From positions 1 to 46,919 of the forward strand of contig JACRAM010000063.1 of NCBI GenBank assembly GCA_016213405.1: a DNA stretch of 46,919 nucleotides, written 5' to 3'. The stretch is from Bacteroidota bacterium (lineage in GTDB: Bacteria > Bacteroidota > Bacteroidia > Palsa-948). This document shows, piece after piece, positions 22,374 to 35,269 of this stretch. The notes beneath the pieces are model-generated. The model worked only from the letters and a program-made list of their open reading frames with translations, made no database searches and was not told where the DNA came from. The position numbers were made by a program, and so were the translations under genes. Every line of letters starts with the position of its first letter. The stretch's first letter is position 1.

Positions 22374-23647
22374 TTCAGCATTGATTTTACTTTCTCAATT
22401 CCTTTTACAAGTTCATCGATTTCTTCTTTTATATTATAAAATGCCAACGAAGCGCGAATAGTCCCTGGAATTCCGAATTTATCCATAATGGGTTGCGTGC
22501 AATGATGCCCAGTTCTAACGGCAATTCCTAATTGATCAAGAATTACTCCTGTATCATAAGGATGAATTCCTTTGAGCACAAAAGAAATCACGCTTGCTTT
22601 TTCTTTTGCCGTTCCGATAATTTTCAATCCCGCAATCGCTGAAAGTTTTTCGGTTGTGTATTCTGTGAGTGTATGTTCGTAAGAAGAAATGTTTTCTAAT
22701 CCAATTTCATTTATATAATCAATTGCGCTTGCCAGTCCGATTACCCCTTCAATGTGCGGAGTGCCTGCTTCAAAGCGCAAAGGACTATCTGCATATTCTG
22801 TTTTGGCAAATGAAACAGTTTTAATTGTTCCACCACCGACCTGATAGTTCGGAAGTTTTCTTAACCATTCTTCTTTTCCATACAGAATTCCAACTCCGGT
22901 AGGACCATACACTTTATGTCCGCTAAAGCAATAAAAATCCGCATCAAGATATTGCACATCCACTTTCATATGGGGAATTGCCTGCGCTCCGTCAACTAAA
23001 ACTGGAATATTTTTCGCGTGAGCCAGAGAAATAATTTCTTTTATCGGATTAATTGTGCCGAGTGTATTTGAAACGTGAGTGATGGCAACTAGTTTTGTTT
23101 TTGTACAAATAAGTTTTTTGAATTCATCGAGAAGCAATTCCCCGTTTTCATTTATCGGAATAACTTTCAGCACAGCTTTTTTTTCCTCACATAATTGTTG
23201 CCACGGAAGAATATTGCTGTGGTGTTCCATTTCAGAAACAATAATCTCATCCCCGGCATTCGCAAACGTTTTCGCGAATCCACTCGCAACCAGATTAATG
23301 CTCTCTGTCGTTCCGCTGGTGAAGATTATTTCGTGAGCGTGTTTTGCGACAATGTGTTTCTGGATTGTTGCTCTTGCGTTTTCGTAAGCAGAAGTAATTT
23401 CCTGGCTTAATGTGTGAACTCCCCTATGAATATTTGCGTTCTGTTCTGAATAATATTTTGTAATCGCCTCTATGACTTGCTTTGGTTTTTGCGCAGTCGC
23501 TCCGTTGTCGAAATAAATTAATGGCTTGCCGTTCACTTTTCGGGAAAGAATCGGAAAATCTTTTCTAATTTTCTGAACATCAAAAGTCCCTCCCGCCCTC
23601 CCCGAAGGGGAGGAGACTGATTTTATATTTTTTTTCTCGTCAATCAT
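22370..23647 (-). CDS. sufS: Cysteine desulfurase SufS
   Basis: This 425-residue PLP enzyme has IYFDNGATAQKPKQV (44-58), VSEMEHHSNILPW, FSGHKVYGPTGVG with the PLP Lys245, and VRTGHHCTQP with the active-site Cys383. It releases sulfur from cysteine for Fe-S clusters in the cytoplasm. Residues 10-21 (SVSSPSGRAGGT) before the first conserved helix (DVQKIRKDFPIL) come from a C-rich palindrome (23585-23620). The start at 23647 lies inside the end of sufD (8-base overlap); a start within or after the repeat is not available as an ATG, so the repeat is translated. Confidence 0.97.
   Translation of the reverse strand: MIDEKKNIKSVSSPSGRAGGTFDVQKIRKDFPILSRKVNGKPLIYFDNGATAQKPKQVIEAITKYYSEQNANIHRGVHTLSQEITSAYENARATIQKHIVAKHAHEIIFTSGTTESINLVASGFAKTFANAGDEIIVSEMEHHSNILPWQQLCEEKKAVLKVIPINENGELLLDEFKKLICTKTKLVAITHVSNTLGTINPIKEIISLAHAKNIPVLVDGAQAIPHMKVDVQYLDADFYCFSGHKVYGPTGVGILYGKEEWLRKLPNYQVGGGTIKTVSFAKTEYADSPLRFEAGTPHIEGVIGLASAIDYINEIGLENISSYEHTLTEYTTEKLSAIAGLKIIGTAKEKASVISFVLKGIHPYDTGVILDQLGIAVRTGHHCTQPIMDKFGIPGTIRASLAFYNIKEEIDELVKGIEKVKSMLK
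23585..23620. repeat. C-rich palindrome in the 5' end of sufS
   Basis: CCTCCCC and GGGGAGG arms around GAA, preceded by AAAAGTCCCTCCCGC, give the same core as the element after fabF (15075-15105). It codes for residues 10-21 of SufS. Confidence 0.85.
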
Positions 23648-24989
23648 TTTGTTTTTTGACTCCCTCTCCTTCGGAGAGGGTTGGGGTGAGGCAGTTATTC
23701 ACGAGTTCTTCCAAATAATTTTTAAGCGAATCAATTCTGATTGTATTCAATACATCATTCGCGAAAGCATACAGCAAAAGATTTCTTGCGCTCTCAACGC
23801 TCAGTCCGCGTGAGCGGAGATAAAAGAGCGCCTCTTCGTTCAATTGCCCTGTGGTGGAGCCGTGCGAACACTTCACATCATCCGCATAAATTTCTAATTG
23901 TGGTTTTGTGTTTATCGTAGCGTCATCACTGAGCAAAATATTTTTTGAACTTTGATATGCGTTTGTTTTTTGCGCGTCACGCTCTACAAATATTTTTCCA
24001 TTAAATATGCCGGTAGATTTTCCGTCAAGAATTCCTTTGTACAGCTGATTACTCTGACAATTCGGTTTGTTGTGATGAACGGCAGTGTGATTGTCAATGA
24101 GATCTGTTCCGTTGGTAATAAATAAACCGTTCAGGTGCGATTCACAATTTTCTCCGTTCAGAGCAATGCTAAGATCATTTCTTGTCCATTCGCTGCCAAG
24201 CGTGATGGCGTTGGTGTCAAAACGAGAATTTTTTTCCTGACTTACATTTATGGAAGAAATTTGTGAAGCATTTTTGCAATCGTTCTGCAAACGATAGAAT
24301 TGCATTTTGGAATTTTCTCCGACAAAAATATCGGCATGAGAATTTACAATCACATGAGCATTGAGGTCAAGAGAAATATTATTTTCAATAATGCTCACCG
24401 AAGAATTTTTTCCAACTATAATCAAATGTCTCGGGCTTGCAAGAATTTCTTTTACTCCTGTCGAAATGTGAATAATTTCAATCGGATTTTCCATCGCAAC
24501 ATTTTCGGGAATATAAATGAATGCGCCATCCGTCCACAAAGCAGAGTTGAGTTGAGCCAGGGCATCTCCATCGTTACTTAAATACTTTTTCAACAAATCG
24601 GAATGATTCAGCAAACCATCAGTGGCAAGATTCCCTACAATAACTCCTTTTGAAAGTTTCGTGCTGAGTGTTGAATCTTTATGTAACCAACCATTTATGA
24701 AAACAAGTTGAATATTTTCTTTTCCTAAAGGGGATGGAATGAAATTCAGTTTGTGCGCCTCGTTATGAATCGCTGTAAACTTTCCTGAAAATATTTTTCT
24801 TACATCCGTGTATTTGTATTCTTCATCTTTTCGAGTAGGAATTCCCGAATCAGAAAAATTTTCAAATGCTTCTTTTCTTTTTTCTTTCAGCCATTCGGGC
24901 TCAGAAGAAAAAGTTTTTGCAAGAAGAGTTTTGAATTCTCCTTCCAGTTGCACGGGAACAAACACGGGTTTATCTAACACAACACTCAT
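23640..24989 (-). CDS. sufD: Fe-S scaffold subunit SufD
   Basis: This 449-residue beta-helix protein of the SufB/SufD family has ENPIEIIHISTG, then HNKPNCQSNQLYKGILDGKS, ADDVKCSHGSTTGQLNEEAL with the conserved Cys and His, and FYLRSRGLSVESARNLL. It forms the SufBC2D scaffold on which clusters are built. The last residues (431-449, NNCLTPTLSEGEGVKKQND) are mostly encoded by a C-rich palindrome (23661-23693) that replaced or extended the natural end. The start overlaps the sufC stop by 4 bases. Confidence 0.96.
   Translation of the reverse strand: MSVVLDKPVFVPVQLEGEFKTLLAKTFSSEPEWLKEKRKEAFENFSDSGIPTRKDEEYKYTDVRKIFSGKFTAIHNEAHKLNFIPSPLGKENIQLVFINGWLHKDSTLSTKLSKGVIVGNLATDGLLNHSDLLKKYLSNDGDALAQLNSALWTDGAFIYIPENVAMENPIEIIHISTGVKEILASPRHLIIVGKNSSVSIIENNISLDLNAHVIVNSHADIFVGENSKMQFYRLQNDCKNASQISSINVSQEKNSRFDTNAITLGSEWTRNDLSIALNGENCESHLNGLFITNGTDLIDNHTAVHHNKPNCQSNQLYKGILDGKSTGIFNGKIFVERDAQKTNAYQSSKNILLSDDATINTKPQLEIYADDVKCSHGSTTGQLNEEALFYLRSRGLSVESARNLLLYAFANDVLNTIRIDSLKNYLEELVNNCLTPTLSEGEGVKKQND
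23661..23693. repeat. C-rich palindrome at the 3' end of sufD
   Basis: CCCTCTCC and GGAGAGGG pair around TTC, followed by TTGGGGTGAGGC. It encodes most of the last 15 residues of SufD and lies 40 bases from the element at 23585, in opposite orientation, so the two could pair with each other. Confidence 0.85.
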
Positions 24990-25738
24990 GCTTCTGCTTT
25001 TCCTTTTATCCAGTCGTATCCTTTTTGTTCGAGCTCAAGAGCCAATTCCTTTCCGCCCGACTTTATAATTTTTCCATTCGACAACACATGAACAAAATCC
25101 GGAACAATATGATCGAGCAAACGCTGATAATGTGTGATGACAACAAATGCACGGTCTTTTGAACGCAATTTGTTTACTCCATTTGCTACAATTCTCAATG
25201 CGTCAATATCCAGACCAGAATCGGTTTCATCTAAAATGCAAAGCGTGGGTTCGAGGACTGCCATTTGAAAAATTTCATTTCTCTTTTTTTCTCCTCCTGA
25301 AAATCCTTCGTTCACCGAACGATTCGCCAGTGTGCCTTGCAATTCCACCAGAGCCTGCTTTTCTTTGATGAGTTTCAGAAAATCTTTTGTCTCCATCGGT
25401 TTCTCTCCTTTGTGTGCGCGAATCTCGTTGATAGCCGTCTTCAGGAAATTAATATTGCTAACTCCGGGAATTTCTACCGGATACTGGAACGCAAGAAAAA
25501 CTCCTTTGCGTGCGCGCACTTCGGGAGGCATCTCCAAAAGATTTTCCCCTTTGAATGTTACTGTTCCTTCCGACACAGAATAATTTTCTCTTCCTGCCAG
25601 CACAGAAGATAAAGTGCTTTTGCCGGACCCGTTCGGTCCCATGATGGCGTGAACTTCTCCTGCTTTTACTTCAAGGTTTATCCCTTTCAGAATTTCATTT
25701 CCGAGAATTCCTGCGTGTAGATTTTTGATGCTTAACAT
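24986..25738 (-). CDS. sufC: Fe-S assembly ATPase SufC
   Basis: This protein is 250 residues from MLSIKNLHAGILGNEILKG. AIMGPNGSGKSTLSSVLAG holds Walker A, VNEGFSGGEKKRNEIFQMA the ABC signature, and LCILDETDSGLDIDAL Walker B. It hydrolyses ATP to reshape the SufBCD scaffold. An upstream ATG at 25783 would add 15 residues (MLRCAQHDK and more) that are encoded by the inverted repeat of the GIY-YIG unit, so 25738 is chosen. The native link to sufB is broken by that 374-bp insertion. Confidence 0.97.
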   Translation of the reverse strand: MLSIKNLHAGILGNEILKGINLEVKAGEVHAIMGPNGSGKSTLSSVLAGRENYSVSEGTVTFKGENLLEMPPEVRARKGVFLAFQYPVEIPGVSNINFLKTAINEIRAHKGEKPMETKDFLKLIKEKQALVELQGTLANRSVNEGFSGGEKKRNEIFQMAVLEPTLCILDETDSGLDIDALRIVANGVNKLRSKDRAFVVITHYQRLLDHIVPDFVHVLSNGKIIKSGGKELALELEQKGYDWIKGKAEA

Positions 25739-25756: not shown

Positions 25757-25785
25757 TTTGTCATGCTGAGCGCAGCGAAGCATCT
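25757..25785. repeat. Left inverted repeat of the GIY-YIG unit
   Basis: This repeat contains TCATGCTGAGCGCAGCGAAG. It encodes the last residues and the stop of the GIY-YIG protein on the minus strand and, in another frame, the MLRCAQHD extension in front of sufC. Similar TGAGCGCAGCGAAGCATCT repeats are known to be dispersed in many bacterial genomes. Confidence 0.85.
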
Positions 25786-26096
25786 AATGGAGGCCACTCC
25801 ATCACTTCCTCGTTTAAAAATTTCCACTCAGAGTTTTCTTCATTTATTAATTCTTCTTTCTTTTTTCTTAACCAGCCTTTTATTTGTTTTTCTCTTGCTA
25901 TCGCTTGGTTTACATATTGATATCTTTCCCAGAAAATTAGATAATAACAATGATATTGACCTGCAAATGTTTTTTTATTCCCTCTGTTTAAATAGTGTTC
26001 TGTTAATCGTTGCTCTAAATTGTTTGTTATTCCTGTGTATAAAACTGTTTTCTTATGATTAGTTACTATGTATACAAAATAATTATGTTGCTTCAT
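25761..26096 (-). CDS. Small GIY-YIG domain endonuclease-like protein
   Basis: This 111-residue protein matches the stand-alone GIY-YIG family related to UvrC N-termini: NYFVYIVTNHKKTVLYTGIT (5-24), a variant of the GIY/YIG motifs reading FVYIV and LYTGIT, then NLEQRLTEHY with the conserved Arg, and AIAREKQIKGWLRKKKEELI with the conserved Glu. These proteins are putative DNA nucleases. The C-terminus (DASLRSA) is supplied by the flanking repeat. The gene sits within the SUF operon in the same direction but has no evident role in it, and the framing repeats suggest it moved in. Confidence 0.85.
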   Translation of the reverse strand: MKQHNYFVYIVTNHKKTVLYTGITNNLEQRLTEHYLNRGNKKTFAGQYHCYYLIFWERYQYVNQAIAREKQIKGWLRKKKEELINEENSEWKFLNEEVMEWPPLDASLRSA

Positions 26097-26101
26097 TTCG
26101 T

Positions 26102-26130
26102 AGATTCTTCGCTTCGCTCAGAATGACAAA
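26102..26130. repeat. Right inverted repeat of the GIY-YIG unit
   Basis: This repeat contains AGATTCTTCGCTTCGCTCAG and is the inverted counterpart of 25757-25785 with three mismatches. It ends 5 bases before the sufB stop codon at 26136. Confidence 0.85.
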
Positions 26131-26135
26131 AAATA

Positions 26136-27596
26136 TCAACCCACACTTCCCTCCAAACTAACTGCCAAAAGTTTTTGTGCCTCCACAGCAAATTCCATCG
26201 GAAGCTGATTAAATACTTCGCGGCAATATCCGTTTACTATTAGACCAATCGCTTTTTCTTTGTCAATGCCGCGCTGCTGACAATAAAATAATTGGTCTTC
26301 ACCTATTTTTGAAGTAGTTGCTTCGTGCTCCACTACTGCAGTTTTATCTTTAATTTCTATATAAGGAAAAGTATGTGCTCCGCATTTATCTCCCATCAAA
26401 AGAGAATCGCACTGAGAAAAATTTCTTGCATTCGTTGCGCCTTTACCAACACGAACAAGTCCGCGGTAAGAGTTGTTGCTTCTTCCGGCAGAAATTCCTT
26501 TGCTCACAATGGTGCTGCGCGTATTTTTTCCTATGTGAATCATTTTAGTTCCGGTATCGGCTTGCTGCATATTGTTGGTCACTGCAACAGAATAAAATTC
26601 TCCTGTGGAATGATCGCCTTTTAAAATTACGCTTGGATATTTCCAGGTGATGGCAGAACCGGTCTCCACTTGTGTCCAGGATATTTTTGAATTTTCTTCA
26701 AGACAAATTCCGCGCTTGGTAACAAAATTATAGATGCCGCCTTTGCCGTCTTTATCTCCGGGATACCAGTTCTGCACAGTAGAATATTTTACTTCTCCAT
26801 TTTTATGCGCGACAATTTCCACCACTGCAGCGTGCAATTGATTTTCATCACGCATAGGAGCGGTGCATCCTTCGAGATAACTTACATACGCATTTTCATC
26901 TGCAATGATGAGCGTGCGTTCGAACTGTCCAGTGCCCGCAGTATTAATTCTGAAATAAGTGGAAAGTTCCATCGGACAGCGAACGCCTTTCGGAATGTAG
27001 CAGAACGAACCATCGGTGAAAACGGCAGAGTTAAGTGCTGCATAATAATTATCAGTGTAGGGCACCACCGAGCCCATATATTTTTTTATGAGCTCGGGAT
27101 GTTCCTGCACGGCTTCGCTGAAGGAACAAAAAATAATTCCTTTTTCTGCAAGCACCTCTTTGAAAGTCGTTTTCACGGAAACGGAATCAATCACAGCGTC
27201 AACAGCGATCGTTGACGGAACTCCGCTCAAACGTTTTTGCTCTTCGAGAGAAATTCCGAGTTTCTCAAATGTTTTTAAGAGTTCAGAGTCCACTTCATCA
27301 AGAGAAGACAATTCTTTTTTGGGCTTCGGTGCTGCATAAAAAATAATATCCTGATAATTTATTTTCGGATAACTGAGATGCGCCCAGTCGTGCGGCTCTG
27401 CCATCATGAGCCAGTGGCGAAATGCTTTCAGTCGAAACTCAAGCATCCATTCCGGCTCGTTCTTCTTTTTCGAAATGAAACGAACAATATCTTCATTCAA
27501 ACCCTTGGGAGCGGAATCCATTTCGATATTATCCGTCCAGCCAAATTTGTAATCGGAAGAAATGTGTTGTTCTAATATTTCATTCTTATCTGCCAT
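26136..27596 (-). CDS. sufB: Fe-S scaffold subunit SufB
   Basis: This 486-residue protein of the SufB family has [15 protein letters not shown] (54-68), [20 protein letters not shown] (189-208), [40 protein letters not shown] with the essential Cys, and [20 protein letters not shown]. It forms the core of the SufBC2D scaffold and holds the nascent cluster. It is separated from sufA by 179 bases that carry two C-rich palindromes, and from sufC by the GIY-YIG unit. Length is normal. Confidence 0.98.
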
Positions 27597-27599
27597 GAA

Positions 27600-27773
27600 G
27601 CCCCTCTCTTATCTCCCCCAAGGGGAGAAGATTTGTTGTGTGTGTCTATTTAGATTCATTCTACCTTTTGAAAAAAGCAAAAAAAATATTCTCACTTACT
27701 TTACTACTATTTGTGTTTTGTTTTTCATCTTCCTTTTTTCTCCCTTCCCTTCGGGAAGGGTTGGGGATGGGTC
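27600..27773. repeat. Two C-rich palindrome elements between sufA and sufB
   Basis: The first (27600-27632) has a CTCCCCCAAGGGGAG core, and the second (27739-27773) a CCCTTCCC-TTC-GGGAAGGG core followed by GGTTGGGGATGGG. They face each other across about 100 AT-rich bases without a gene, so they could form one long hairpin within the operon mRNA. Confidence 0.8.
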
Positions 27774-27775
27774 GC

Positions 27776-28102
27776 TTATACTGCAAAACTTTCACCGCAT
27801 CCGCAGGTGCGCTGAGCGTTTGGATTTTTGAATTCAAATCCCTTTCCGTTCAATCCGCCTGAGAAATCAAGTTCGGTTCCCACGAGATAGAGAAAACTCT
27901 TTTTGTCCACCACGATTTTCATTCCTTTATCTTCAAAAACCTGGTCGCCTTCTTTAATTTGATTGTCGAATTCCATTTTATAAGAAAGCCCCGAACAACC
28001 GCCACTCTCCACGCCCACGCGGATGAAAGTATCTGCGGGTTTGTTCTCTTCCTTAATAAGTGCGAGCGCTCTTTGCTTTGCGTTTTCTGAAACTGTTATC
28101 AT
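27776..28102 (-). CDS. sufA: A-type Fe-S carrier (HesB/IscA/SufA family)
   Basis: This 108-residue protein has VGVESGGCSGLSYKMEF with the first conserved Cys and TCGCGESFAV with the last two, the three-cysteine ligand set of A-type carriers. It takes clusters from the SufBCD scaffold to target proteins. It is the first gene of the SUF operon, with a well-formed promoter 26 bases upstream of its ATG. Confidence 0.95.
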   Translation of the reverse strand: MITVSENAKQRALALIKEENKPADTFIRVGVESGGCSGLSYKMEFDNQIKEGDQVFEDKGMKIVVDKKSFLYLVGTELDFSGGLNGKGFEFKNPNAQRTCGCGESFAV

Positions 28103-33776: not shown

Positions 33777-34745
33777 ATGTCAAGAATTTTAACAGGCGTT
33801 CAAAGCACAGGAGTTCCGCACCTCGGAAATTTGCTCGGAGCAATCATGCCCGCCATTGAACTTTCAAGGAAGAAAGAGAATGAATCATTTTTTTTCATAG
33901 CGGATCTGCATTCGCTCACAACGGTTAAAGATGCGGAGATAAGAAAAAATAATACGTACGCAACTGCTTCCGCGTGGCTTGCTTTTGGTTTTGATACAGA
34001 GAAAAATACTTTTTACCGACAGAGCGATGTAACAGAAGTCTGCGAGCTAACCTGGTATCTTTCCTGCTTCAGCCGCTACCCGATGCTTGCCAACGCAACT
34101 TCTTTCAAGGATAAATCCGAAAGATTATCGGAAGTGAACGCAGGGATTTTCATGTACCCTGTGCTGATGGCTGCTGATATTTTATTGTATGATGCAAATT
34201 TTGTTCCTGTTGGAAAAGATCAGAAACAGCATCTGGAGATGACACGCGACATCGCTACAGCATTCAATAATCAATACGGAGAAACACTGGTCGTGCCCGA
34301 AGCGCTGATGGACGAGCGCGTAATGATAATTCCGGGAATTGACGGACAGAAGATGAGCAAGTCGTACAATAATTACATCGATATTTTTCTTCCTGAAAAA
34401 GATGTGAAAAAAGTGGTGATGAATATTGTTACGGACGCTACGCCTTTGGAAGCACCGAAAAATCCTGACACTTGTAATGTGTTCAAATTGTATGCGCTTC
34501 TGGGAAATGAATCACAAGCGAAAGCGATGAAAGAAAAATATTTAAAAGGCGGATACGGATACGGACATGCGAAGACTGAGCTTTTTGAGCTCATCATGGA
34601 TAAATTCAAAACTCAGCGCGGAGAGTTTACCCGATACATGAGCGATAAAAATGAACTGGAGAAAAAATTATTGCTGGGTGCGGAGAAAGCGAGAAAAGTT
34701 GCCGGTGTCGTTTTGAAACGAGTTAGAGAAAAGCTCGGATACTAA
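33777..34745 (+). CDS. trpS: Tryptophanyl-tRNA synthetase
   Basis: This 322-residue class I synthetase has GVPHLGNLLGA (12-22) as the HIGH-type motif and GQKMSKSYNN (about 190-199) as the KMSKS loop. FFIADLHSLTT and YPVLMAADILLYDANFVPVG are also diagnostic. It charges tRNA-Trp in the cytoplasm. It stands between two repeat-rich gaps, without obvious operon partners. Length and motifs are normal. Confidence 0.98.
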   Translation: MSRILTGVQSTGVPHLGNLLGAIMPAIELSRKKENESFFFIADLHSLTTVKDAEIRKNNTYATASAWLAFGFDTEKNTFYRQSDVTEVCELTWYLSCFSRYPMLANATSFKDKSERLSEVNAGIFMYPVLMAADILLYDANFVPVGKDQKQHLEMTRDIATAFNNQYGETLVVPEALMDERVMIIPGIDGQKMSKSYNNYIDIFLPEKDVKKVVMNIVTDATPLEAPKNPDTCNVFKLYALLGNESQAKAMKEKYLKGGYGYGHAKTELFELIMDKFKTQRGEFTRYMSDKNELEKKLLLGAEKARKVAGVVLKRVREKLGY

Positions 34746-34749
34746 TTAT

Positions 34750-34841
34750 TCAGGGCTGAAGCCCATGTGACATGCATTTATTAACCCCGACCTTAAGGTC
34801 GGGGCTACAACAACAAGATACATCAAAGGGTTTAGCCCTGA
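34750..34841. repeat. Nested inverted repeat with a 20-bp perfect palindrome
   Basis: The outer arms TCAGGGCT (34750-34757) and AGCCCTGA (34834-34841) enclose the perfect palindrome CCCCGACCTTAAGGTCGGGG (34785-34804). The element ends 5 bases before the IPExxxVDY-family start codon, and the start ATG at 34772 used by the longest frame lies inside it. Confidence 0.85.
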
Positions 34842-34846
34842 TAGAA

Positions 34847-35269
34847 ATGGCACCCAAGAAAAAACTGCTGATACAAAACGATTATGACTTTTTTCTTTTC
34901 GGAATCAGTTGCGGAGAAAAACCATATCGCCTGTGCTGGGCACTGAATAATCAATTGAAAACAGCTTTCTCAAAAGGCAAGGATATGGAAGTGCATGAAA
35001 AAAATCAGGCAGAACAATCGAAGTTCTCCGTGTTTGCATACCACAACGAAGAAATGTTTACGGATTACCGGATCATTTTAAATAAATCAGAAAATAAATT
35101 TCTTGTTTCCGAATACAAGCACGCTGATTATCTGTTGATGGTGCAGGGCGGAATTCCGTTCTCAGAAAAAAATTCCATCCTGAAAAAAGTAAAAGAAGTG
35201 GCGTTTGTGCAAACTGCTTTTGAGATAGACCCGAAAAAAATAAAATCAAAAGAAAATTTTGTCTTCTGA
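34847..35269 (+). CDS. IPExxxVDY family protein next to pyk
   Basis: This protein is 140 residues from MAPKKKLLIQNDYDFFLFGI. CGEKPYRLCWALNNQLK and EYKHADYLLMVQGGIPFS are the family landmarks. The family is a Bacteroidota-specific protein of unknown function usually encoded just before pyk, as here with a 1-base overlap. A longer frame from 34772 is rejected because its first 25 codons lie in the nested inverted repeat. Co-transcription with pyk suggests a link to central metabolism, but nothing in the sequence shows what it does. Confidence 0.82.
   Translation: MAPKKKLLIQNDYDFFLFGISCGEKPYRLCWALNNQLKTAFSKGKDMEVHEKNQAEQSKFSVFAYHNEEMFTDYRIILNKSENKFLVSEYKHADYLLMVQGGIPFSEKNSILKKVKEVAFVQTAFEIDPKKIKSKENFVF

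Follow-up and report, generated by a model that had tools for sequence, protein, structure and literature searches.

Between sufB and sufC of a Bacteroidota genome lies a small GIY-YIG nuclease gene, closely framed by two inverted repeats. Do gene and repeats form one mobile unit, and does the nuclease recognise or even spread the repeats? The original prediction pointed out that similar dispersed repeats have no known mover, and this agrees with the group that the repeats match, the CGTC REP superfamily, which is reported to be apparently without a dedicated transposase, with the mover left open (Di Nocera et al., 2013; PMC3733652). They have in common with that superfamily the unpaired (C/T)GTC tag, a stem opening with AT, a single hairpin, the occurrence as dimers and the presence in Bacteroidetes. 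The same survey describes CGTC-tagged palindromes in five phyla, including dRS3 of Neisseria and RPE-4/RPE-6 of Rickettsia; it names no transposase dedicated to them and is silent on GIY-YIG proteins, whereas here the repeats bracket one protein family (PMC3733652). The lack of an associated mobility enzyme, which was reported for CGTC REPs without defining them, does not apply to the present repeats, with which GIY-YIG genes are associated.

A nuclease gene framed by inverted repeats

The window, by which we mean the whole stretch of 46,919 nucleotides that was analysed, contains the following features at this locus:

24986-25738, minus strand: sufC, downstream neighbour
25760-26127, no strand: putative mobile unit from tag to tag (GTC to GAC), 368 bp; homology ends at the tags, absent in congeners
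25760-25786, plus strand: left terminal repeat GTCATGCTGAGCGCAGCGAAGCATCTA; tag GTC at 25760-25762, stem ATGCT/AGCAT
25761-26096, minus strand: gene of the 111-aa GIY-YIG nuclease, its stop codon overlapping the left tag
26101-26127, minus strand: right terminal repeat GTCATTCTGAGCGAAGCGAAGAATCTA (minus-strand reading); tag at 26125-26127, stem ATTCT/AGAAT
26136-27596, minus strand: sufB, upstream neighbour (name from sequence; orthologues in the same place in five of six congeners)

Read as its reverse complement, the stretch 26102-26130 matches the left arm TTTGTCATGCTGAGCGCAGCGAAGCATCT (25757-25785) in 26 of its 29 bases, and both repeats begin with GTC on the outer side, the arms being outward-facing inverted repeats. 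The last codons (..DASLRSA) and the stop codon TGA of the nuclease ORF are supplied by the left arm, with the TGA overlapping the GTC tag. The original prediction was thus right that 29-bp inverted repeats frame a GIY-YIG gene (ORF 25761-26096, minus strand) and that one of them encodes its last residues and stop. Its 374-bp unit holds as to the framing but is better bounded at 25760-26127, and of its statement that the gene splits the SUF operon, the position between sufB and sufC stands, while "splits" is too strong for a gene co-directional with suf. Allowing up to two mismatches, the 14-mer core of the repeat has 2 matches in the whole window against 0.16 expected, and the shuffled expectation gives P of about 8e-7 for two such repeats inside 374 bp, so that their co-occurrence is not due to chance. 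A generic repeat finder run on the window missed the inverted pair, which reflects a seeding limit of that program. Other palindromes (CCCAACCCTCTCCGAAGGAGAGGG, CTCCCCTTCGGGGAGGG and CCCTTCCCGAAGGGAAGGG) are also found in the suf operon, at window positions 23570-23720 and 27590-27790, where they encode the C-terminus of sufD (LTPTLSEGEG) and part of the N-terminus of sufS.

The encoded protein matches the Pfam GIY-YIG family (PF01541, E=1.4e-15), its catalytic residues Y9, Y20, R30 and E69 are invariant among 36 homologues, and the AlphaFold model of the 111-residue chain has a pLDDT of 93.7. UPF0213 and Slx1 are nearest to it by sequence and fold, the closest solved structures being UPF0213 (1zg2, 1ywl) and Slx1, where the fold matches have weak E-values and high probability. 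Slx1, a nuclease of branched DNA, has domains that the window protein lacks, and we know of no function for UPF0213. A role in defence found no support in PADLOC. Two nearly identical homologues at different sites in two species (L002 and L038, see below) differ by a dN of only 0.02 with synonymous sites saturated, and this substitution pattern places the protein under strong purifying selection.

Empty and occupied sites in congeners

The original prediction suggested looking for an empty site in the suf loci of relatives, and one was found. The sufB-sufC junction is readable in five congeners (G001, G003, G004, G005 and G006), and in G006 the gap is 21 bp long with no nuclease gene. G003 has a gap of 78 bp with another palindrome, G001 a four-helix-bundle-like ORF (L146) and G005 a 1.2-kb ORF (L147; both named by inspection). 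In G004 (L149) we observed a gene-less repeat dimer of another class (that of CGTCATTGCGAG) with its tags outward, apparently an independent insertion. Since different congeners hold different inserts there, the junction is an insertion hotspot or permissive site, and since these junctions differ and are without the nuclease gene, the gene is not part of the suf operon. From this comparison the nuclease unit between sufB and sufC reads as an insertion.

The window's genome (G000) encodes three homologues, L001 in the window and L002 and L003 elsewhere, and GTC-tagged repeats flank all three, with a different repeat class for each. A single dispersed repeat family serving all three genes is ruled out, as each has its own class. 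A pattern search with the tight class-2 pattern found no copy in G000. The site of L002, between typA-like and NIF3-like genes, is empty in G001, G003, G004 and G006, and that of L003 holds no gene in G001 and G005, as read from the sequence, or in G003, G004 and G006, as judged from flank spacing. L038, nearly identical to L002 as a protein, sits in G006 between trpS-like and pyk-like genes (neighbours of both named by inspection), where G000, unlike G006, has no nuclease gene (trpS-pyk gap, window 34560-35027). GIY-YIG elements are thus found at sufB-sufC, typA-NIF3, trpS-pyk and other places, and homing into one conserved target is ruled out because the sites are unrelated. Homing endonucleases of the I-TevI type share the catalytic domain with the window enzyme, which however has no target-recognition domain, has copies at unrelated sites and would recognise the ends of its own element.

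Boundaries of the element

Where does the element end? DNA homology between the window element and unlinked elements stops 1–8 nt outside the tags, with offsets at the two ends of +2/+3 for L081, +6/+1 for L034 and +8/+1 for L244. Ends and tags were likewise compared in other unlinked pairs (L113/L282, 0/0; L073/L237, 1/1; L069/L081, 2/1), and for L087 and L090, both in one genome, the alignment ends 1 and 11 from the tags. Many alignments of elements in unrelated surroundings reach to within a few bases of both tags. Others fall short at one end owing to divergence of the repeats, and a few, between orthologous loci, run on well beyond the tags. The observed elements range from 346 to 693 bp. 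Had the two repeats been unrelated insertions, the original prediction would have been refuted, but unlinked elements are homologous from tag to tag through the gene, and an empty site exists in congeners.

In 78 elements (156 ends) selected for GTC, the preceding base is T (73%) or C (19%), and GTC is followed by A (94%) and then T (87%). In a count over 158 ends, T or C precedes GTC at 147. Target-site duplication is not general, the longest word shared outside the tags averaging 4.48 compared with 4.31 in crossed pairs. The exception is L003 (G000 contig C57:47730-47996), which has the 8-bp direct repeat TAATCAAT on both sides, and whose neighbours kept intact ends because the two genes overlap there in the empty site. 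By classical IS criteria, terminal inverted repeats are therefore present and target-site duplication, apart from L003, is not.

The same architecture exists without the gene. Dimers of 54 bp, for example GTCATGCTGAACGAAGTGAAGCATCTA-TAGATTCTTCGCTACGCTCAGAATGAC, are found in G000 and G002 and resemble the joined ends of the window element. One of them lies between paaB and paaC (named by inspection), and another, at C26:10500, is missing at a precise site in G003 and G006. Such dimers may have arisen by internal deletion of the element, which is only an inference, and the best reading is that they are MITE-like, non-autonomous derivatives.

Pairing of GIY-YIG genes with inverted repeats

For the pairing analysis, the upstream flank of each gene was aligned against the reverse complement of its downstream flank, and a score of at least 14 was taken as a matching inverted pair. 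Such a pair was found in 59 of 110 homologue loci of a first sample, drawn from the class (54%), and in 46 of 78 loci of a second sample from named genomes (59%). Culturable carriers of the gene include Roseivirga sp. E12 and Flavisolibacter ginsengisoli. Among the controls of the first sample, the score was reached by 6 of 149 neighbouring ORFs, by 1 of 419 displaced windows and by 4.3% of crossed loci; in the second, 2 of 292 displaced windows and 11% of crossed loci reached it, the latter value being raised by the similarity of repeats from different genomes. The samples are not wholly independent, as a few genomes are in both (L074 and L237, for example, are identical). The expectation that other ORFs of the family would have the same flanking repeats is therefore borne out by a strict pair in just over half of each sample. 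Homologues routinely lacking repeats would have spoken against the original prediction, and this is not what we see: at least one tag motif is present in the flanks of 78 of 111 genes (70%) and 63 of 80 (79%). Nevertheless, about 40% of homologues have no strict inverted pair, which counts against general pairing; in L002 and L038 we found tags facing the gene, or repeat clusters. An automatic count of tag hairpins, which applies a strict rule to the stem, gave for that reason a weaker signal than pair alignment.

The association extends to whole genomes, most of those compared being MAGs. A homologue is encoded in 23 of the 31 genomes with at least two copies of the window repeat class (class 1, with 15 copies in G000) against 108 of the remaining 263 (P = 0.0004; repeat counts are from pattern searches). 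In the other 8 of the 31 no homologue was detected at the threshold used, for example in G283, which has 36 copies. Two observations stand apart from these counts. A class-1 repeat is read in frame in L006 (G000 contig C38:52141), a gene with a secretion-sorting C-terminal domain, giving VYPNPASTNV-FVILSEAKNLQ-LFNTLGEKVG, in the manner of the protein-coding RPE insertions of Rickettsia, and L026 looks similar. Sixty viral contigs (L157-L216) encode relatives of the protein alignment.

Does a given nuclease go with a given repeat? Repeat similarity rises with protein identity over 105 loci (Mantel test, Spearman rho 0.37, with 0 of 2000 permutations as high). Pairs within one genome matter here because host ancestry contributes to this correlation: where protein identity is less than 55%, none of the 8 such pairs has a repeat in common, but the two most similar pairs do. 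Those eight pairs are the only control for host phylogeny. Since the repeat sequence is observed to track the protein sequence and the pairing is general, recognition of its own repeats by the nuclease is strongly implied, although no cleavage has been observed.

Hairpin structure of the repeats

Among 52 distinct variants of class 1, changes on both sides of the stem ATTCT/AGAAT and inner GC/GC number 20 compared with 2.7 in shuffled data, and among 53 variants of class 3 they number 53 compared with 19.2. Shifting the partner by 1–3 bases destroys the pairing. As the variants were gathered by patterns with few mismatches, their range is limited. The GA and GA between the two helices can form tandem G.A pairs, the loop is GNA, and the observed covariation supports 5 bp, tandem G.A and 2 bp closed by a 3-nt loop. 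The DNA mini-hairpin d(GCGNAGC) is unusually stable. In a standard energy model one of the ends folds in the same way, and the hairpins come out no more stable than shuffles. On the strength of these compensatory changes the repeats are predicted to fold as tagged hairpins. For the CGTC REP superfamily a stem of 8–9 bp and a loop of 4–5 nt have been given, with the pairs perhaps counted differently there (PMC3733652).

A mobile unit and its proposed mechanism

Together, the comparisons give good support to a repeat-bounded mobile unit with a repeat-specific nuclease, and in our view the most probable description, though by no means a settled one, is that of an autonomous REP-type element, in which two outward GTC-tagged palindromes of the CGTC-REP kind enclose the gene of a nuclease that would be specific for that class and nick its hairpins. 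Several things count against it. Hydrolysis of DNA by GIY-YIG enzymes involves no covalent link, which means that host functions have to provide the strand transfer. To this are added the homologues without a strict pair, the absence of a general target-site duplication, the class-1 repeats in genomes with no homologue detected, the lack of extra hairpin stability in the energy model and the reliance on MAGs for most genomes. Where the DNA becomes single-stranded, on the lagging strand, after uptake or in an extruded cruciform, each end would fold into a hairpin with a 5-bp stem, tandem G.A, 2 bp and a GNA triloop. The nuclease would read stem and loop and nick at or beside the unpaired (T/C)GTC tag, releasing a segment (the complete gene unit or just a short dimer of two hairpins) that host repair would then copy into another site. 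The 54-bp dimers without a gene would be non-autonomous derivatives served by the same enzyme. Cutting of the hairpin in single strands is likely, although here cleavage, its single-strand requirement, the cut position at the tag and the copying route are all inferred. That the nuclease drives the spread of the repeats is the best explanation we have, but it is not demonstrated, as no movement was observed. The original suggestion that the GIY-YIG protein may recognise or spread the repeats is accordingly supported to different degrees, recognition being strongly implied and spreading remaining an inference without cleavage or transposition having been seen.

The closest known enzymes are presumably those of the Ssn family, which are reportedly GIY-YIG nucleases with site-specific activity on single-stranded DNA (Nature Communications, 2025). 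The Ssn protein of Neisseria is said to target a dispersed repeat and to modulate natural transformation. Ssn enzymes and the window protein are both small GIY-YIG proteins with a cognate genome-dispersed repeat; unlike the window element, Ssn is not known to form a tag-bounded mobile gene unit. We found no link in the literature between GIY-YIG proteins and such repeats, in a search that did not cover the Ssn paper. It is conceivable, therefore, that an Ssn-like enzyme cuts single-stranded repeats, for instance in incoming transformation DNA, and does not move them, with regulation or selection for linkage as the reason why its gene lies amid its targets. The reported activity of the Neisseria enzyme, the small size, the active site and the repeat specificity all fit this, and the strong purifying selection is as compatible with a role for the host as with a selfish one. 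Yet it would leave unexplained why homology between unlinked copies ends at the tags, why the units occupy different sites in congeners and why gene-less dimers of the same architecture exist, and for these reasons we regard it as unlikely, though not negligible.

Could other transposases of the same genus move the repeats, with the GIY-YIG gene only hitch-hiking? The RAYT/REPtron/REPIN systems (Y1 HUH enzymes with GTAG REPs) resemble the window element in that the gene of the enzyme lies between hairpin repeats whose tag is unpaired, dimers without the gene are dispersed in the genome and target-site duplication is not general. They differ in the tag and in the enzyme, as the window nuclease is unrelated to Y1 HUH proteins and has neither the HUH fold nor a covalent intermediate. 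Y1 transposases are present in the same genomes, with eight Y1_Tnp matches in G000. The lack of repeats in G001 cannot be put down to its want of a GIY-YIG gene, as G001 is also without Y1 transposases; both enzymes are absent there at the thresholds used, so this confounded absence cannot separate the two movers. However, none of the 20 Y1/RAYT loci of the genus has the GTC-tag motif in its flanks, compared with 8 of 9 GIY-YIG loci, and many carry palindromes of their own as pairs, for example GTCCCGTAGGGAC..TATAG. Nor did Di Nocera et al. find any RAYT gene flanked by CGTC repeats (PMC3733652). Y1/RAYT enzymes are therefore disfavoured as movers of the GTC-tagged repeats, and we give the hitch-hiking explanation very little weight. 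The flanks suggest that the genus harbours two repeat systems, each with its own type of enzyme. The Y1/RAYT genes (L351-L370) have several distinct flanking palindromes, among them GTCCCATAGGGACAACCTGTTTATAG and GCCCCGACATTTATGTCGGGG, and the trpS-pyk gap of the window (34740-34870) contains a palindrome, CCCCGACCTTAAGGTCGGGG, that resembles those beside the Y1 transposases of the genus.

Finally, repeats and small nuclease genes might both merely gather in permissive intergenic sites, such as the sufB-sufC gap with its different inserts in congeners, without any functional link, but this is hardly tenable, since such pairing is not a property of neighbouring genes or of displaced windows, the repeat class follows the protein sequence and the boundaries coincide with the tags.

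Implications for the repeat superfamily

The autonomous REP-type element that we favour may have a wider counterpart. Small GIY-YIG nucleases could be the enzymes dedicated to moving the CGTC REP superfamily, forming a class of elements that works by single-strand hairpin nicking and host repair and not by DDE or HUH chemistry, with dRS3, the Rickettsia RPEs and many unnamed GTCAT palindromes as non-autonomous derivatives; this generalisation we offer tentatively, as something that may well turn out either way and that we would not yet back. The GIY-YIG enzyme is nonetheless the best candidate for spreading a widespread repeat class without a known mover. CGTC-type palindromes span several phyla, with Neisseria, Rickettsia and Bacteroidetes among their carriers. 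Through a gene family that lies between such repeats, with protein and repeat matched class by class, the question of the mover becomes directly testable. If the proposal is true, two chemically unrelated types of enzyme would spread REP-like repeats, and many candidate sequence-specific single-strand nucleases would become available, each with its target written in the flanks of its own gene.
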